The position numbers were made by a program, and so were the translations under genes. The notes under the pieces are model-generated. The model had not been told where the DNA came from. It was given only the letters and a program-made list of their open reading frames with translations, and did no database searches. A stretch of DNA of 22,975 nt from a virus. Within the stretch, counting starts at the first letter, position 1, and each line of letters begins with the position of its first letter. Of this stretch, positions 13,161-19,830 are shown one piece after another. The DNA is taken from the IMG/VR virus record IMGVR_UViG_3300026321_000022, positions 1-22,975 of that record. The stretch is one strand, 5' to 3'.

Positions 13161-14192
13161 ATGTTTACCCCTCTAGCAACTAGCACAATGCTTTCAATTG
13201 TTTCTACAATGGGCAAATTTGACCCGTTCTTTCTACGTCTGTTTTTCGGCAGCGTTGTAACTTCGCCAGATGAAAGCATCCACTTTGATAAAATCCATGA
13301 CGATGTAGTTATGGCGCCGTTCGTATCACCTATGATTGCTGGCAAGGTGCACAAAGAAAAAGGTGGAGAACTTAAAAAATTCACGCCTGCTTATGTTAAA
13401 CCAAAGCATGCAGTGAAACCTTCGAATAACCTGAAACGCCGCCCTGGCGAATCTTATTTGGGTGAACTAACGCCTGCGCAGCGAAGACAAGCAACCGTTG
13501 TAGAGTTGCTTGAACGCCAAGATAAAGCAATTACCGCTCGTGAAGAGTGGATGGCGGCACAAGCCGTGCTTACTGGTTCTGTTACCGTTGACGGTGAAGA
13601 CTACGAAAAGCAAGTAGTTGATTTTGGCCGGAATCCTGAAAACAGCATCACTCTAGCAGCGGGCGCTAAATGGGATGTAGTAGACCCTGAAACTTACGAT
13701 CCAACCGATGACATTACCAACTGGGCAGAAAATGCTACGGGCAACATTAATACCATCGTTATGGGCAAAACGGCTTGGGCTAAGTTCTACTCGTTCAAGT
13801 CTGTAAAAGACAACTTAGACACTCGCCGTGGCAGTTCTTCAGAAATGGAAACGGCAACTAAAGACCTTGGTATGGCAGTTAGCTTTAAAGGTTACTTTGG
13901 TGATGTGGCGATTTGGGTTTACACAGGCCAGTACATCGATGCTGAAACGGGCAACAAAGAATACTATATGCCAGTAGGTAAAATTCTTTTGGGTAACTCA
14001 TCTTATGAGGGTATTCGCTGCTATGGCGCAATCCAAGATGTTCGCGCTAACGACGAAGGCATTGTTTCAGCTTCTCGCTATCCGAAAAACTGGATGCAAG
14101 AAGATCCATCGGTAGAGTACATCATGACGCAATCAGCGCCCCTAATGGTTACGCCTGATCCAAACGCGTTTGTTGATGTAACAGTCCTTTAA
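13161..14192 (+). CDS. E: Major capsid protein, E-like
   Basis: 343 residues (lambda gpE 341), homologous over its length: FDPFFLRLFF, FTPAYVKPKHAVKP, YDPTDDI, SFKSVKDNLDTRRGSSSEME, ATKDLGMAVSFKGYFGDVAI, YSGQY-like YTGQY, and ASRYPKNWM with IMTQSAPLM near the end. It has the HK97 shell fold by family. AAGGAG at 13147-13152 lies eight bases before ATG, the strongest ribosome-binding site in the head module, as expected for the most abundant structural protein. Confidence 0.97.
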   Translation: MFTPLATSTMLSIVSTMGKFDPFFLRLFFGSVVTSPDESIHFDKIHDDVVMAPFVSPMIAGKVHKEKGGELKKFTPAYVKPKHAVKPSNNLKRRPGESYLGELTPAQRRQATVVELLERQDKAITAREEWMAAQAVLTGSVTVDGEDYEKQVVDFGRNPENSITLAAGAKWDVVDPETYDPTDDITNWAENATGNINTIVMGKTAWAKFYSFKSVKDNLDTRRGSSSEMETATKDLGMAVSFKGYFGDVAIWVYTGQYIDAETGNKEYYMPVGKILLGNSSYEGIRCYGAIQDVRANDEGIVSASRYPKNWMQEDPSVEYIMTQSAPLMVTPDPNAFVDVTVL

Positions 14193-14202
14193 TTTTCAAT
14201 GT

Positions 14203-14219
14203 GGCGGGTTTAACCCGCC
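14203..14219 (+). promoter_or_regulatory. Strong hairpin after the capsid gene, no T-run
   Basis: GGCGGGTTTAACCCGCC is a perfect inverted repeat (seven pairs with a three-base loop) placed eleven bases after the capsid stop and just before the FI-like ribosome-binding site. It lacks a T-run on either strand, so it is not a standard intrinsic terminator. It could stabilise or mark a processing point of the capsid mRNA, or damp translation of the next gene; both are inference. Confidence 0.5.
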
Positions 14220-14231
14220 TAAAGGTTATTT

Positions 14232-14485
14232 ATGACAGCTCAAACAGCAAAGCAAAAAGCGGCAAATGCAGCTTCATCTAAAGATACTGATAATGCAGAG
14301 TCGAAAGTTTCAAATGAAAATAAGGTTGAAGTTTACCTTTCTAAAACTGTTCAGTTTGTACCAGGTGCAGAACCTTCAAGCCCGGCTCACACTCTCTTAT
14401 TGAATCGGTAGCGAAAGGACTAATTGAAGACGGTTTGGCCGTTAGTAAAGAGTCTACGAACAGCGAAGAAGACGGCGAAGAGTAG
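14232..14485 (+). pseudogene. FI: FI-like DNA packaging protein, frameshifted
   Basis: ATG 14232 has AAAGG upstream (14221-14225) and encodes an Ala/Lys-rich start, then VYLSKTVQFVPGAEPSSP, but stops at TAG 14409 after 59 residues. The next frame carries the obvious continuation HSLIESVAKGLIEDGLAVSK, ending at TAG 14483. Restoring one C in the CCC run near 14379 would give a single reading frame of about 85 residues. Position between E and FII, and the PG...GLA C-terminus, fit the lambda FI slot (FVLPGTAFRV...MTERGLA). FI assists terminase-procapsid docking. The break may be a real one-base deletion or a sequence error; I saw no slippery heptamer. Confidence 0.65.
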
Positions 14486-14490
14486 TTTAG

Positions 14491-14775
14491 ATGTTTAATT
14501 TCAAAGAGGCTCTAGCTTCGCTAGGTGATGAGTGCCTTGAACACTTCGGTGAGCCAATTTTTATAAATGGCGTCGAAGTTAGGGCTATCTTTGATGATGA
14601 AACATTCGAAGAAGAAGCGGGTCTTTTTAGGAAGACTACGCTCTCTGTTAAAAAAGAAGATATGGTCCGCTTTAAAAAAGGTGATGCTATTGTGGTTCGT
14701 AACCGTAGTTACGTTGTCACTTATATACCGGATATTGATGAACCGTTAGTGGACTTGGAGTTAAAGAGTGCATAA
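14491..14775 (+). CDS. FII: Head-tail joining protein, FII-like
   Basis: 94 residues (lambda gpFII 117). The pattern GVEVRAIFDDETFEEEAG, a central KTTLSVKKEDM..FKKGD block and RNRSYVVTYIPDIDEPLVDLEL matches lambda IRGVFDDPENISYAG, LFVRTDEVRQLRRGD and ENFWVDRVSPDDGG. gpFII binds gpW at the portal and forms the surface to which the tail attaches. The upstream ribosome-binding site is weak. Its stop overlaps the GTG start of the U-like gene. Confidence 0.85.
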   Translation: MFNFKEALASLGDECLEHFGEPIFINGVEVRAIFDDETFEEEAGLFRKTTLSVKKEDMVRFKKGDAIVVRNRSYVVTYIPDIDEPLVDLELKSA

Positions 14776-15199
14776 AACTATTGTTATCCGTGATGCAATT
14801 ATCTCGTCACTTGAACCTCTGGTAGCAAATGACACTGTAAAAGAGATAACAAGGGGAGCTCGCCACTCTCATGATTACCCATCGATAAGCGTATTAATTG
14901 GCCCCGATGATGTGGCTAGTAAAAATAGTGCGTTTATCAATTGGGAATTAACTGTCTATACAGATATAACGATCAGTTCAACCGATGAAGATGTGGATGC
15001 GTTATCGCAAAATGTGAGAAAGGAAATTCACAAAGCGCTAATGGCAGATTATACGCTTGGTTTAGATTTCGTTACTGAAATCGACCCCATTGGTCAGCAG
15101 GAACCAAAGCGTTCCGATGACTCTGACTTATACAACAGTGTGACTAGTGTTGCATGGCTTGTTAAATACAGAACCAGTGTTGCAGACCCTAGTTTGTAA
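14768..15199 (+). CDS. U: Tail terminator protein, U-like
   Basis: 143 residues from GTG 14768, with GGAG at 14757-14760 seven bases upstream, and an 8-base overlap with FII. Features shared with lambda gpU (about 131 residues) are an N-terminal helix (IVIRDAIISSLEPL), a YPSISVLIG strand, WELTVYTDI, a helix of the type DVDALSQNVRKEIHKAL, and the final RSDDSDLYNSVTSVAWLVKY (lambda RRDDDAGLWSSADLTYVITY). gpU caps the tail tube and stops its growth. In lambda Z lies between FII and U; here nothing does. Confidence 0.88.
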   Translation: MHKTIVIRDAIISSLEPLVANDTVKEITRGARHSHDYPSISVLIGPDDVASKNSAFINWELTVYTDITISSTDEDVDALSQNVRKEIHKALMADYTLGLDFVTEIDPIGQQEPKRSDDSDLYNSVTSVAWLVKYRTSVADPSL

Positions 15200-15222
15200 C
15201 ATCTTAATTATTGGCGTATATT
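15194..15222 (+). promoter_or_regulatory. Candidate moron promoter
   Basis: TTGTAA (15194-15199), overlapping the U stop codon, and TATATT (15217-15222) are 17 bases apart. They match the sigma-70 consensus at four and five of six positions. Start of transcription would be near 15229, 25 bases before the lipoprotein ATG. It could express the lipoprotein from a silent prophage. Confidence 0.6.
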
Positions 15223-15253
15223 TAAACTCCACTTTATTCAGGGAAGAAGGTTA

Positions 15254-15604
15254 ATGAAATTTATATCAATACTATTATTGTCTATAGCATTGGCAGGCTG
15301 TTATTCAGTTGGAAAGCCAATAGATACGGCAAAAGCTAATCATTTTATAAAGGGCGAAACTACTGAGCGCGAGGTATTAGCTGCTCTTGGTAAGCCTATT
15401 ACTGTAACAAACAATTCTGAGGGCGAGCGCATGCTTGCTTACTCTTATGCTAACACCGATGTGAAAGCATCTACCTATATACCGGTTGTTGGTTTGTTTA
15501 CAGGTGGTGCTACTAGCACCGTTCAATATCTAATAGTGACCCTAGACGAAACTGGGGTTGTTAAGGATTGGCAAACGTCCGAGACTGTAGCCAGCACAAA
15601 TTAA
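15254..15604 (+). CDS. Prophage-encoded lipoprotein, BamE/SmpA-like (moron)
   Basis: 116 residues. A short signal sequence MKFISILLLSIALAGC ends in lipobox LAGC with C16 as the lipidated residue. The mature part (FIKGETTEREVLAALGKPI, then a strand-rich region with MLAYSYAN and VQYLIVTLDETGVVKDW) resembles the SmpA/OmlA (BamE) fold, a two-helix, three-strand outer-membrane lipoprotein domain. It has its own promoter upstream and two terminators downstream, so it is not a virion assembly gene. Phage-borne lipoproteins often block receptors against superinfection; that role is inference. GGGAAGAAGG (15241-15250) is the ribosome-binding region. Confidence 0.8.
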   Translation: MKFISILLLSIALAGCYSVGKPIDTAKANHFIKGETTEREVLAALGKPITVTNNSEGERMLAYSYANTDVKASTYIPVVGLFTGGATSTVQYLIVTLDETGVVKDWQTSETVASTN

Positions 15605-15609
15605 TATAG

Positions 15610-15630
15610 ACCCGCTTCGGCGGGTTTTTT
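15610..15630 (+). terminator. Intrinsic terminator with TTCG loop after the lipoprotein gene
   Basis: ACCCGC-TTCG-GCGGGT (15610-15625) followed by a T-run to 15630 is a textbook factor-independent terminator with a very stable UUCG tetraloop. It begins five bases after the lipoprotein stop codon. Confidence 0.93.
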
Positions 15631-15644
15631 ATTGCCCGTAATTC

Positions 15645-15668
15645 ACCCGCCACTGAGCGGGTTTTTTT
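15645..15668 (+). terminator. Second tandem intrinsic terminator
   Basis: ACCCGC-CACTGA-GCGGGT (15645-15662) with seven T (15662-15668). The stem arms are identical to those of the terminator 35 bases upstream, so the two are related or duplicated. Together they should isolate the lipoprotein unit from the tail genes unless late transcription is antiterminated. Confidence 0.9.
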
Positions 15669-15680
15669 GTAGGTGAAGAC

Positions 15681-15761
15681 ATGAAAAAGCGCGAATTCAG
15701 AACACGTAAAGGCGGTAGCACTAAGGCACCGGCTCCAAAGAAGCAAAGTAAAGAGGACTGA
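15681..15761 (+). CDS. Tiny basic ORF between the terminators and the tail tube gene
   Basis: ATG 15681 with AGGTG at 15671-15675 opens 26 codons ending at TGA 15759, two bases before the tail tube ATG. The product is strongly basic (MKKREFRTRKGGS, then APKKQSKED) with no hydrophobic core. It could be a small nucleic-acid-binding or leader peptide, or only a translational lead-in whose 3' end carries the ribosome-binding site of the tail tube gene. Not recognised. Confidence 0.4.
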   Translation: MKKREFRTRKGGSTKAPAPKKQSKED

Positions 15762-15763
15762 GC

Positions 15764-16681
15764 ATGCTTACTACTAAAGAGGCCATTGCCTTAAAAATTG
15801 AAACCACCCAAGGTGTTGAAGCCGCGCCAGATCCATCAGCTGATGCCATTTTGGTTTCAGAGTTAAGTTACGCAAATGAAGGTTTGCGAATGGTTGAGCG
15901 CCCCCTTATTAAGCCTACCATTTCAACTGAACAATCTATCTTTGCGGGGACGCTTAAAAAGCTAACTTTCACCGCAGAACTGAAGGGTTCTGGTACTGCT
16001 GGCGTTGCTCCTGAAATTGGTCAAGCATTACGCTGTTGTGGTTTGTCTGAGACTATCGGCGCGAGTGTTATCTATCAGCCAGTATCTGAAGGCCATGAGT
16101 CCTGCACCATTTACTACTACCAAGATGGCCGTTTAAATAAAATTATTGGCGCCAAAGGTACGGCAACAATTAACGCTGAAGCAGGCGGTTTAGGCACAAT
16201 CCAGTTTGAATTTACTGGAAAGGATGCAGGTCGTGTTGACCAAAACTTCCCATCGCTCGCATACAACGCAACCGTTCCACGCCCATTTATTGAAGTTCCT
16301 TTCTCTATCGGTGGCTATGACGCAATCATTAATTCTTTCTCTCTAGCATTCGGTAACACGATTTCTACACCTGGCAATGTCCGTGAAGCAGACGGTTATG
16401 CGCAAGTAGAAATATCAAAGCGTGACCCGAACGGCTCGATTGACCCAGAAGCACAAAAGATTTCCGTGATCGACTTCGAAACGAAGTTTAAAAACGGTGA
16501 GCTTATGGATATGACTACCGGCGATGTAGGCAAAGTTGCGGGTAACATTTGGAATGTTAGTGCGAAGGCGGGTATTCGAGATATTTCAGCGGGTGAGCGT
16601 GATCAGCGAAGAACTGATGACTTAACCTACGGCGCGCACGAAACGCTGGGTGATGACGAATTCACGATTGAGTTTAAGTAA
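15764..16681 (+). CDS. Major tail tube protein
   Basis: 305 residues, larger than lambda gpV (246) and not obviously of that type. It begins TTKEAIALKIETTQGVEAAP, a start typical of tail tube proteins from other siphophage groups, continues with strand-rich segments (LKKLTFTAELKGSG, GTIQFEFTGKDAG, INSFSLAFGNTIS) and ends in GDDEFTIEFK. Position directly before the tail chaperone genes and tape measure supports the call. It would form stacked hexameric rings. GAGG at 15753-15756 is the ribosome-binding site. Confidence 0.8.
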   Translation: MLTTKEAIALKIETTQGVEAAPDPSADAILVSELSYANEGLRMVERPLIKPTISTEQSIFAGTLKKLTFTAELKGSGTAGVAPEIGQALRCCGLSETIGASVIYQPVSEGHESCTIYYYQDGRLNKIIGAKGTATINAEAGGLGTIQFEFTGKDAGRVDQNFPSLAYNATVPRPFIEVPFSIGGYDAIINSFSLAFGNTISTPGNVREADGYAQVEISKRDPNGSIDPEAQKISVIDFETKFKNGELMDMTTGDVGKVAGNIWNVSAKAGIRDISAGERDQRRTDDLTYGAHETLGDDEFTIEFK

Positions 16682-16690
16682 GGATTTATC

Positions 16691-17035
16691 ATGCAAGCAC
16701 TAGCAGTTGAAACTCACTACCCACTGAGCGCTTATCAAAAGAGTGATGATGGTGAACTACTTAAAGGCGCTGACGACAAGCCTTTACTCAAAGACAACGC
16801 CAAAGGCTACCGCATTAAGCCACTTAATTCGCTTCAGTTTATGGAAGTGATGATGGATGGTTACGAGGTTAAAAATGGTATTAACAAAATGAATTCGGTA
16901 GGTGTGAAGTTACTTCTTACTTATGGTTTAGAAGATGCCTCGCAGATTTCAAAAATCCCAGCGTTAGACCTCGTTCAAGTAGCGCAAGCAATTTACAACA
17001 AATCAGCGCTGGCAGAGTTAGAAAGAAAAAACTAA
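16691..17035 (+). CDS. G: Tail assembly chaperone, G-like
   Basis: 114 residues (lambda gpG 140). Mostly helical after residue 45 (LQFMEVMMDGYEVKNG, VGVKLLLTYGL, LVQVAQAIYNKSALAELERK). It sits between tail tube and tape measure, the fixed position of siphophage tail chaperones, and its last codons form a -1 slippery site (A AAA AAC) just before TAA. G and its frameshift product coat the tape measure and recruit tube subunits, then leave the mature tail. Identification rests on position, size and the frameshift signal, not on sequence motifs. Confidence 0.8.
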   Translation: MQALAVETHYPLSAYQKSDDGELLKGADDKPLLKDNAKGYRIKPLNSLQFMEVMMDGYEVKNGINKMNSVGVKLLLTYGLEDASQISKIPALDLVQVAQAIYNKSALAELERKN

Positions 17036-17337
17036 TTATCGCAGTAGAAGTTGCAAAAAAACGTGATGCGTTTAATTGCGACAATTGCACATGGGGTAGG
17101 CACTGCGACGAAACTAACCCCGCACCCTTCGATAAATGGGATATAAAAATAGATGGCAAAATTGAATCAACCCGCATTTGCCCTCTAGGTCAAGTAACAC
17201 CGCAAAGTAATAACCTTTTAAATCTCTATGGCTTTTACAAGCAGGGGCAACTGTGCCTGTCTGGTGGCGTTCTCGAACAGCCGCACAAATACCTTGAAGC
17301 CATGCGAATAATTGATAATCAGGTGAATAGTGAGTAA
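16691..17337 (+). CDS. GT: Tail assembly chaperone G-T, made by -1 ribosomal frameshift
   Basis: Slipping back one base at 17026-17032 continues into an open frame from 17032 to TAA 17335-17337, adding 101 residues for a fusion of about 215 (lambda gpG-T 279). The T part starts LIIAVEVAKKRDAF and holds a cysteine cluster (NCDNCTWGRHC, then RICPLG and LCLSGG) that may bind zinc. It has no start codon of its own near the junction and ends eight bases inside the tape measure gene. In lambda the T domain links G to tube protein V. Confidence 0.88.
17026..17032 (+). promoter_or_regulatory. Programmed -1 frameshift slippery heptamer A AAA AAC
   Basis: In the G frame the codons are AGA AAA AAC TAA, so the heptamer A_AAA_AAC is in exact register for simultaneous P- and A-site slippage, with the stop immediately after it. 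The -1 frame is open for 101 codons. A small inverted repeat (AATTG-CGA-CAATT) lies about 40 bases downstream; no strong pseudoknot was evident by eye. Confidence 0.9.
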
Positions 17338-19243
17338 ATACGAATTTATTATCTCAGCGCAGGATAAAACCGCCCAGGCTTTCACCGCGATCAACTCCAA
17401 GCTAGGAACGGTAACCAAGCAGGCAGTTACTACTGCAGCTGCAGTAGCTGGTGTTACTGCTTCTTTTGCGGTAATGGCAAGCAGTGCAGTTAACTCAGCG
17501 AAAGAGTTGGATGCCCAAGCCAAGCTTGCTGGCGTTACTGTTGAAGAGTTTCAGGCGCTAAGTTACGCCTATGGCCAGTTTAATATCAGTCAAGAGAAGT
17601 TCGCTGATATTTCGAAAGATGTTCAAGACAAGCTGGGTGATTTCCTAGCTACAGGTGCAGGCCCGTTCAAGGACTTCTTCGAGCAAGTTGCACCCAAGGT
17701 CGGTTTGACCGCTGATGCATTGAAAAACCTTTCAAGCAGCGAAGTCCTTATTGCTGTTAAGAAGGCAATGGACGATGCGAACGTTTCAGCCAAAGAGCAA
17801 GTCTTCTACATGGAGTCGCTTGCCAATGATGCCACGCTACTTATTCCGGCACTTGAAGACAATGGAGCGGCAATTAATTCTCTCGCTTCTGAGTATCGAG
17901 ATTTAAACTTAGCTATATCAGAAACAGATGTAACGAAAGTAAAAGAACTTTCTGATGAAATGGCACGGTTGGAGGCAGCAGGCCAGAAGTTAAAGTTTAG
18001 CTTGGCATCCTCTTTTGTAGAGCCTCTAGCTGATATTGCTGAAGCAATTGATGATTTTTACCAGGGTTCAATTGTACGCTTTGAACGCGACTTTATTGAA
18101 ATAGATAAGTTCGTAACCGAGGCGAAACTATCGTTTATAGCTTTTAAGGACATAGTTGGTGCCGACATTGATACTGAAGAGTTGGATAGGCTAACTCAGC
18201 GTGCAGAATATCTTTCTAATCAGTACGATAAGCTAACCAGAAAAATTAAAGGCGAACCAATTGATTTTGAGTTTGGTTATGGTGAAACCGACAATATCTT
18301 CGCTGGCCTTGAAAATCCCTTCAAAATTGAAGGGGCTGTTACGAACATAGACACCAAACCTATAGAGCAAGCAGAAAGCTCATTTTTAAATAGCCTTTAT
18401 TACATAGATGAAATGAATGCTAATGCGTTCAATTTTGATAACCAGATGACAGATGATGATCTGCAATTCTGGGAAAAGTTTGAACAAAGGGGTTTTGCTG
18501 CTTACGATAATCTATTCGTTGAAAGTACGACATTTTGGGATAATTGGCTTCAGGCAGCTGAATCAAATTTAACAAACTTTGATGAGCTTTCTGCTAGCAC
18601 AATTGAGAATTTCTCTGGGCAAATGGGGAACGCGTTAGAGTCTGTAATATTTGACTCTCAGAGTTTGGGTGATGCTTTCCAAGGCGTCATGCAGGGAATG
18701 GCTAGAAGTGTGGTCAATGCTTTAGGCCAAATGGCTGCACAATGGTTAGCGTATCAACTTGTTCAGATGTTTGTTGGCAAAAGTGCCGCAGTAGCCGGTG
18801 CCGCCGGACTTGCTTTGAACGCTCAAGCGTCTTCATTGATGGCGGGTCTTAATGCCTTCCAAAGTACGGCCGCTATTCCTATTGTTGGACCAGCCATGGC
18901 TCCTGCTGCCATGGGTACTGCGCTATCTATTACACAACCTATCGCCGCATCAATTTCAGCCCTTACTGCCAGTGCCGCGCTAGCGTCATACGACGGCGGC
19001 GGCTTTACCGGCGCAGGTGCTCGTGTCGGTGGTATGGATGGAAAGGGTGGTAAGTTAGCCATGCTTCACCCGCGCGAAAAGGTTATCGACTTAACACGCG
19101 GGCAAGGTGAGGGAACCAGTATTAATGCGCCGATTACTATAAACGGTGGCAACTTATCGCCCGAAGAAATGTTGGCGAAAGTAAATAAACTGCCCAAAGC
19201 CTTTTTGAGAAAAATTCAATCCGAACTTTCAAGGCCGCGTTAA
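17330..19243 (+). CDS. H: Tail tape measure protein, H-like
   Basis: 637 residues from GTG 17330, overlapping the T frame by eight bases; AGGTG at 17321 precedes it. It starts KYEFIISAQDKTAQAFTAIN, typical of tape measures. Alanine-rich and helical regions follow; a long hydrophobic stretch near 470-560 (MAAQWLAYQLVQMF, AAVAGAAGLAL, IVGPAMAPAAMG) is the expected membrane-active part. The C-terminal YDGGGFTG...LAMLHPREKVIDL block is common to many phages. It sets tail length and helps DNA enter the cell. It is shorter than lambda gpH (853 residues), so a shorter tail is expected. Confidence 0.92.
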   Translation: MSKYEFIISAQDKTAQAFTAINSKLGTVTKQAVTTAAAVAGVTASFAVMASSAVNSAKELDAQAKLAGVTVEEFQALSYAYGQFNISQEKFADISKDVQDKLGDFLATGAGPFKDFFEQVAPKVGLTADALKNLSSSEVLIAVKKAMDDANVSAKEQVFYMESLANDATLLIPALEDNGAAINSLASEYRDLNLAISETDVTKVKELSDEMARLEAAGQKLKFSLASSFVEPLADIAEAIDDFYQGSIVRFERDFIEIDKFVTEAKLSFIAFKDIVGADIDTEELDRLTQRAEYLSNQYDKLTRKIKGEPIDFEFGYGETDNIFAGLENPFKIEGAVTNIDTKPIEQAESSFLNSLYYIDEMNANAFNFDNQMTDDDLQFWEKFEQRGFAAYDNLFVESTTFWDNWLQAAESNLTNFDELSASTIENFSGQMGNALESVIFDSQSLGDAFQGVMQGMARSVVNALGQMAAQWLAYQLVQMFVGKSAAVAGAAGLALNAQASSLMAGLNAFQSTAAIPIVGPAMAPAAMGTALSITQPIAASISALTASAALASYDGGGFTGAGARVGGMDGKGGKLAMLHPREKVIDLTRGQGEGTSINAPITINGGNLSPEEMLAKVNKLPKAFLRKIQSELSRPR

Positions 19244-19830
19244 TGTTTCCTACTAATGATTTCGAATCAATTCAGGCCGAGTTGATAAGTCACACTATTA
19301 TTCCAAAAGCTAGGTTAAGACGTTACCGCTCTAAAAGCGGTAAAGAGCCTTACTACCAGTTTAGCCTTCAATCGCAAATAAAGCCTTATCGAGAGTTCTC
19401 ACGCATCGATGCGATGCTTGATAGCTACCAAGGCGAATTTGAAGTTTTCGCACTACCTAATCCAATGATTTCACATAAAGCCCAAACAGGGCTTTATTTG
19501 TATCAGGCCGCGAATAAAGGTGCGGACACCATTGTTCTTGGTGGTGTTCCCTCAAGCGAAATTGATGCAGTAATTGCTGGTGATTTCTTGCAAATCAACG
19601 GTAGCAAAAAAGCCTATCGCGTACTTAGCGATGCGAACGCTGATGCAGCGGGGCGGGTTACGGTCAAATTAACCCAACCTCTCATTCAAAATTACATTTC
19701 ACCATCAACCATTAAATACGGTGATGCCGTCGAATTCCAGGTCTCAATGACTGATCGCGATAGCGATGCAACAACAGCAGATAAAGCACGCTGGGGTTCT
19801 CACTATGTAGAGCTAATCGAACAAATATGA
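19243..19830 (+). CDS. Distal/minor tail protein
   Basis: 195 residues, ATG at 19243 overlapping the tape measure stop (TAATG). Strand-rich, with the segment VIAGDFLQINGSKKAYRVLS and AGRVTVKLTQPL, a pattern often seen in small tail-tip proteins of siphophages that sit between tape measure and baseplate genes, then a C-terminal DAVEFQVSMTD strand. By position it takes the place of lambda M and probably forms the ring at the tube tip. No residue-level motif pins the family. Confidence 0.6.
   Translation: MFPTNDFESIQAELISHTIIPKARLRRYRSKSGKEPYYQFSLQSQIKPYREFSRIDAMLDSYQGEFEVFALPNPMISHKAQTGLYLYQAANKGADTIVLGGVPSSEIDAVIAGDFLQINGSKKAYRVLSDANADAAGRVTVKLTQPLIQNYISPSTIKYGDAVEFQVSMTDRDSDATTADKARWGSHYVELIEQI

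Follow-up and report, generated by a model that had tools for sequence, protein, structure and literature searches.

Production of tail assembly chaperones by -1 ribosomal slippage is well known in phages, and the locus described here, from a marine relative of Alteromonas phage P24, is ordinary in kind. It raises the question of whether a short gene, G, is extended at a slippery A_AAA_AAC heptamer into a second frame, T, as an earlier note on this DNA proposed, and what part is played by a stop codon placed directly behind the heptamer. The window (the whole stretch of DNA analysed, 22,975 nucleotides) aligns with P24 over 89% of positions 14000-19300 at 90.7% identity. Its tail genes lie in the order tail terminator, small lipoprotein-like gene, Phage_tube_2 tube protein, G and tape measure. 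The G/GT position is therefore flanked by the major tail (tube) protein (PF18906) on the 5' side and by the tape measure (PHROG 2854) on the 3' side. Positions 16691-17337 are very probably a G/GT tail assembly chaperone locus in which GT is made by -1 ribosomal slippage at A_AAA_AAC. The features of the locus are as follows.

15764-16681, plus strand: tail tube protein (Phage_tube_2), 5' neighbour of G, from a profile match
16691-17035, plus strand: G, putative zero-frame tail assembly chaperone, 114 aa, from the ORF call and predicted fold
17026-17032, plus strand: slippery heptamer A_AAA_AAC in the G register, from the sequence and kept in relatives
17033-17035, plus strand: G stop TAA, adjoining the heptamer with 0 nt between
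17032-17337, plus strand: T, the -1 extension, 101 codons and stop, from the sequence and purifying selection
17041-17088, plus strand: predicted stem-loop, candidate stimulator, from a folding z of -2.5 and a family-level structure signal
17077, 17086, 17104 and 17179 (17077-17181), plus strand: codons of four conserved T cysteines, residues 16, 19, 25 and 50, from relatives
17330-19243, plus strand: tape measure protein with a GTG start, from the ORF call and PHROG 2854

The slippery heptamer and the open -1 frame

The codons at the 3' end of G are GAA AGA AAA AAC TAA, and A_AAA_AAC fills the last two codons in the zero-frame register, with the TAA immediately after it. From 17032 the -1 frame reads LIIAVEVAKKRDAFNCDNC...VNSE, which amounts to 101 codons (17032-17334) with a stop at 17335-17337. 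This frame overlaps the end of G and, because the tape measure begins with the GTG at 17330, it also overlaps the start of that gene by 8 bases. T has no start codon of its own near its beginning: the earliest ATG, GTG or TTG is at 17302, about 10 residues before the end, and no ORF of at least 60 aa starting with one of these codons was found on the plus strand of 17036-17329. The deposited annotation of P24 likewise leaves the T interval empty. The heptamer in perfect register, the stop directly behind it, the 101-codon frame ending inside the tape measure start and the interval left blank by standard gene calling are thus all as the earlier note had described them. So is the lambda slip site, GGGAAAG, which on the lambda sequence lies 15 nt from the lambda G stop.

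The string AAAAAAC is no commoner in the window than chance predicts (9 observed against 10.8 expected, both strands). The copy in G is the sole in-register A_AAA_AAC in the 19 called ORFs of the window, and among the 15 in-register XXXYYYN motifs in these ORFs it is the only one that touches a stop. An open T frame alone would arise by chance with a probability of about 0.002; the two other frames across the T region contain 8 and 11 stops. A second A run (17055-17062, AAAAAAAC), with seven A, lies in the T frame 22 bases 3' of the end of the heptamer. As another slip site it is not conserved, being broken in the relatives L004, P24 and L026, and it is probably incidental.

Comparison with relatives was more informative. 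Nearby phages and one Thalassotalea bin have T sequences of 95-100% identity, and the differences fall mostly at third codon positions. More distant T sequences are 74% (L026), 41% (L036), 40% (L037) and ~27% (phage JP1) identical to that of the window, and the heptamer is kept in all four; the G proteins of L036 and L037 share only 32% and 24% identity with that of the window. The triplets 3' of the heptamer are TGA in L036 and TCA TAA in L037. DNA identity to L026 peaks at the heptamer, reaching 0.90 over 17021-17050 compared to 0.37-0.77 in 30-base strips of G. The dN/dS of the T frame is 0.00-0.11, which indicates strong purifying selection on a second coding frame. Since both T and the in-register AAAAAAC are conserved across relatives, the slip-site observation is real and goes beyond chance. 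This confirms that A_AAA_AAC and the T extension are a genuine conserved sequence feature.

Several other explanations of this arrangement were weighed. A pseudogene or an assembly error is very unlikely, because several records that were assembled separately show the arrangement and conservation extends to both frames. T might be translated independently from a non-standard start, such as the ATT at 17035 or the ATC at 17038, with the heptamer incidental, and the public records of several phages do annotate the second frame from internal starts. Against this, no usual start codon occurs before 17302, and the heptamer together with the residues right after it, L-I-I-A-V-E-V, lies at the G-T junction and is among the best conserved parts. 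An independent start of T is for these reasons extremely improbable. Slippage of RNA polymerase along the A run, with one base lost or two gained in the mRNA, would also yield GT, and the site is indeed a six-A run followed 22 bases on by the seven-A run. A run of six A is, however, short for a polymerase to slip on, the second run is broken in the three relatives named above, and in other relatives the corresponding slot holds GGGAAAC, which is in the same register and lacks such a run. The interchange of AAAAAAC and GGGAAAC favours ribosomal -1 slippage, and we consider polymerase slippage highly improbable.

Heptamer strength, the adjacent stop and downstream RNA

The earlier note had placed AAAAAAC in a more efficient class than the lambda heptamer. 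In a complete E. coli heptamer test the most efficient motifs were C_CC.A_AA.G, G_GG.A_AA.G and A_AA.A_AA.G (PMC4066793), whereas A_AA.A_AA.C and G_GG.A_AA.C had low efficiency, though insertion sequences use them (Sharma et al., PMC4066793). In eukaryotes, AAAAAAC ranks as a strong motif (PMC4066793). By the E. coli ranking, lambda GGGAAAG belongs to a stronger bacterial class than AAAAAAC, and, provided that Alteromonas follows E. coli in this respect, the order given in the note is the wrong way round for bacteria. The proposal of a G-T chaperone made by frameshifting at A_AAA_AAC is supported by gene order, selection on T, the conserved heptamer and the fold of G; the claim of a more efficient heptamer is not supported.

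Ribosomal -1 slippage at this site would proceed as follows. Most ribosomes would make G only, terminating at the TAA at 17033. A minority would undergo a tandem -1 slip on A_AAA_AAC, in which the tRNAs for Lys and Asn move from pairing with AAA-AAC to pairing with AAA-AAA, and would then read CTA ATT ATC and onwards to give a GT protein of 215 aa (114 G and 101 T residues). If the roles are as in lambda, the tape measure protein would be coated by G, and GT, the less abundant product, would recruit tail tube subunits through its T part. The weak bacterial heptamer and the next-codon stop would together keep GT scarce. According to earlier bacterial work that is summarised in PMC4373837, a stop immediately following the slippery site reduced -1 shifting and over-production of RF2 abolished it. 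A weak heptamer joined to a stop that lowers shifting would hold GT low, consistent with the lambda G:GT ratio of 30:1 (PMC5009743). Given the bacterial precedent (PMC4373837), it is plausible that the adjacent stop tunes the GT:G ratio, as the earlier note had suggested.

A stem-loop about 8 nt 3' of the heptamer may raise slippage. Its predicted pairings in the window are 17041-17045 with 17084-17088, 17050-17056 with 17076-17082 and 17059-17064 with 17068-17073; the stem begins 8 nt after the heptamer and has a z of -2.5, while its P24 counterpart is weak (z -1.4). Among 44 representatives, the RNA just 3' of the heptamer had a mean z of -1.74 compared to -0.63 to -0.03 for controls (p 2.8e-6), with the signal absent in several members, including lambda. 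Covariation values for the specific stem-loop within the window's clade were no better than those of shuffles. As covariation supports no particular structure, the stem-loop is a candidate stimulator only.

Recurrence of the heptamer and adjacent stop

A stop directly behind the slip site is the less usual part of the locus, yet in sequence comparisons it recurs in many related phages. Mean heptamer-stop distances of 26 and 36 nt have been reported (PMC10885494), and adjacency was reported earlier for Acinetobacter phage Loki (PMC5313236). In seven named phages whose tube proteins are related, AAAAAAC or GGGAAAC occurs together with an adjacent stop. A set of 299 genomes yielded 29 DUF1799 loci, all but one with an in-register heptamer (AAAAAAC in 21, GGGAAAC in 7), and the stop is adjacent in 24 of these 28 prophage and phage loci. 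All T sequences were then grouped at 45% identity and one member of each of the resulting 35 clusters was counted. The heptamer is AAAAAAC in 25 clusters and GGGAAAC in 6. The nucleotide T follows it in 31 of the 35, and in 24 of those 31 this T opens a stop codon, compared to 3/16 expected (p 2e-12). This null takes all codons beginning with T as equally likely and the clusters as independent; it is crude, because codons differ in likelihood and the clusters, which were found via similar neighbours, have common ancestry.

The recurrence bears on whether the adjacent stop is itself a working part, so that ribosomes slip while the stop codon occupies the A site, with release factors competing and the stop tuning the slippage. 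The bacterial data on stops and RF2 described above (PMC4373837) and the adjacent stop in 24 of all 35 T clusters speak for this. On the other hand, a sister group (L048, L050, L051, L055, L056, L060 and L061) has retained AAAAAAC with a stop that comes 90-105 nt later, which means that the site can persist without adjacency; the stop lies 3 nt after the heptamer in L037 and 27 nt after it in JP1, and coding economy would explain adjacency equally well. We regard a working role of this kind as unlikely, and it refines rather than replaces the explanation by -1 slippage. A more specific version is that the weak heptamer ending in AAAC and the adjacent stop form one conserved recoding module, in which slippage is mainly post-translocation with the stop in the A site and GT:G follows the supply of release factors. 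This we find doubtful; if true, the module would tie phage tail assembly to host termination capacity.

The locus is of wider interest solely because a weak heptamer and an adjacent stop occur together repeatedly, an arrangement in which release factor competition would be expected. It raises the testable question of why phages combine a next-codon stop with heptamers of low efficiency in E. coli. In Vibrio phage 1.289.A (L018, 2174-2183), which has a related tape measure, A_AAA_AAG followed by TAA is found at the equivalent gene end, a case of an adjacent stop with a strong heptamer.

The G and T proteins and comparison with known systems

Searches of G and T against Pfam, PHROGs and NCBIfam gave no match to any named family, and PDB sequence searches with G and T profiles gave no matches; the chaperone identity is consequently based on genomic position and a modest similarity of fold. 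The predicted model of G (pLDDT 90.7) was compared by structural alignment with the top-ranking PDB chains from Foldseek. Among the matches listed with Z of at least 2 are 3klu (YqbN, which we take to be a relative of XkdN-type tail genes; Z 6.0), 2ob9 (the tail assembly chaperone of HK97; Z 5.0) and 5ir0 (a protein from a PICI-like element of Vibrio; Z 4.8). These scores are modest, with Z below 8 and Foldseek E-values above 1. In a viral search with the G model, models named as tail assembly chaperones, including Mu FS-gp41, recur among weak matches. The best resemblance of the predicted G fold, a modest one, is to phage tail assembly chaperones.

The T model is moderate (AlphaFold pLDDT 71.5, with disagreement among the five models) and its best viral fold match has an E of 0.27, so no fold is claimed for T. 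The four cysteines of T are kept in L026, L036 and L037; the same layout is found in phages RcZahn, L338C and RcTiptonus, and a shifted version in JP1. That they form a metal site is a guess. The window's T resembles the DUF1799 (PF08809) T domains of proteobacterial prophages and phages in following an in-register AAAAAAC or GGGAAAC and in starting with Leu right after the heptamer. In contrast, homology between the two is unsupported, with no match at E 1 and a profile-profile probability of 0.05%. Judged by its sequence, T is a diverged four-cysteine domain outside the Pfam, PHROGs and NCBIfam families. In the other tube-protein group, the T sequences of L048, L050, L051, L060 and L061, with the stop at 90 nt, have conserved cysteines and a DUF1799-type profile probability of 94%.

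As in lambda gpG/gpGT (PMC5009743), two overlapping ORFs lie between the major tail protein and the tape measure, with T in the -1 frame and a heptamer near the end of G. The window differs from lambda in its heptamer, in the distance to the stop (0 nt compared to 15 nt) and in the four conserved T cysteines, of which lambda T has none; no sequence similarity was found between the window locus and lambda G/T. Acinetobacter phage vB_AbaS_Loki gp12/gp13 is closer in its slip site, with an AAAAAAC adjoining the G stop that its authors noted and a joined CDS (PMC5313236). Loki T, however, has neither a comparable cysteine layout nor a GG-LxQP segment. The nearest counterpart is P24 (MK241539.2), in which G is 95% and T 100% identical, with the same heptamer and adjacent stop, but T is unannotated in the deposit. 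Our reading fills this 101-codon part of a gene in P24 and relatives. It also suggests an annotation rule: beside Phage_tube_2, or with a DUF1799 T, AAAAAAC or GGGAAAC should be sought, often right at the stop.

Gene order differs in L023, L025 and L027 (2001-3001), where tape measure relatives of 57-59% identity come soon after a large Mu-type-head-like ORF and the G-T pair is absent between the two. In the window itself, the small lipoprotein-like gene between the tail terminator and tube genes (15254-15604; PHROG 3135, weak BamE match) is possibly a moron-type gene.
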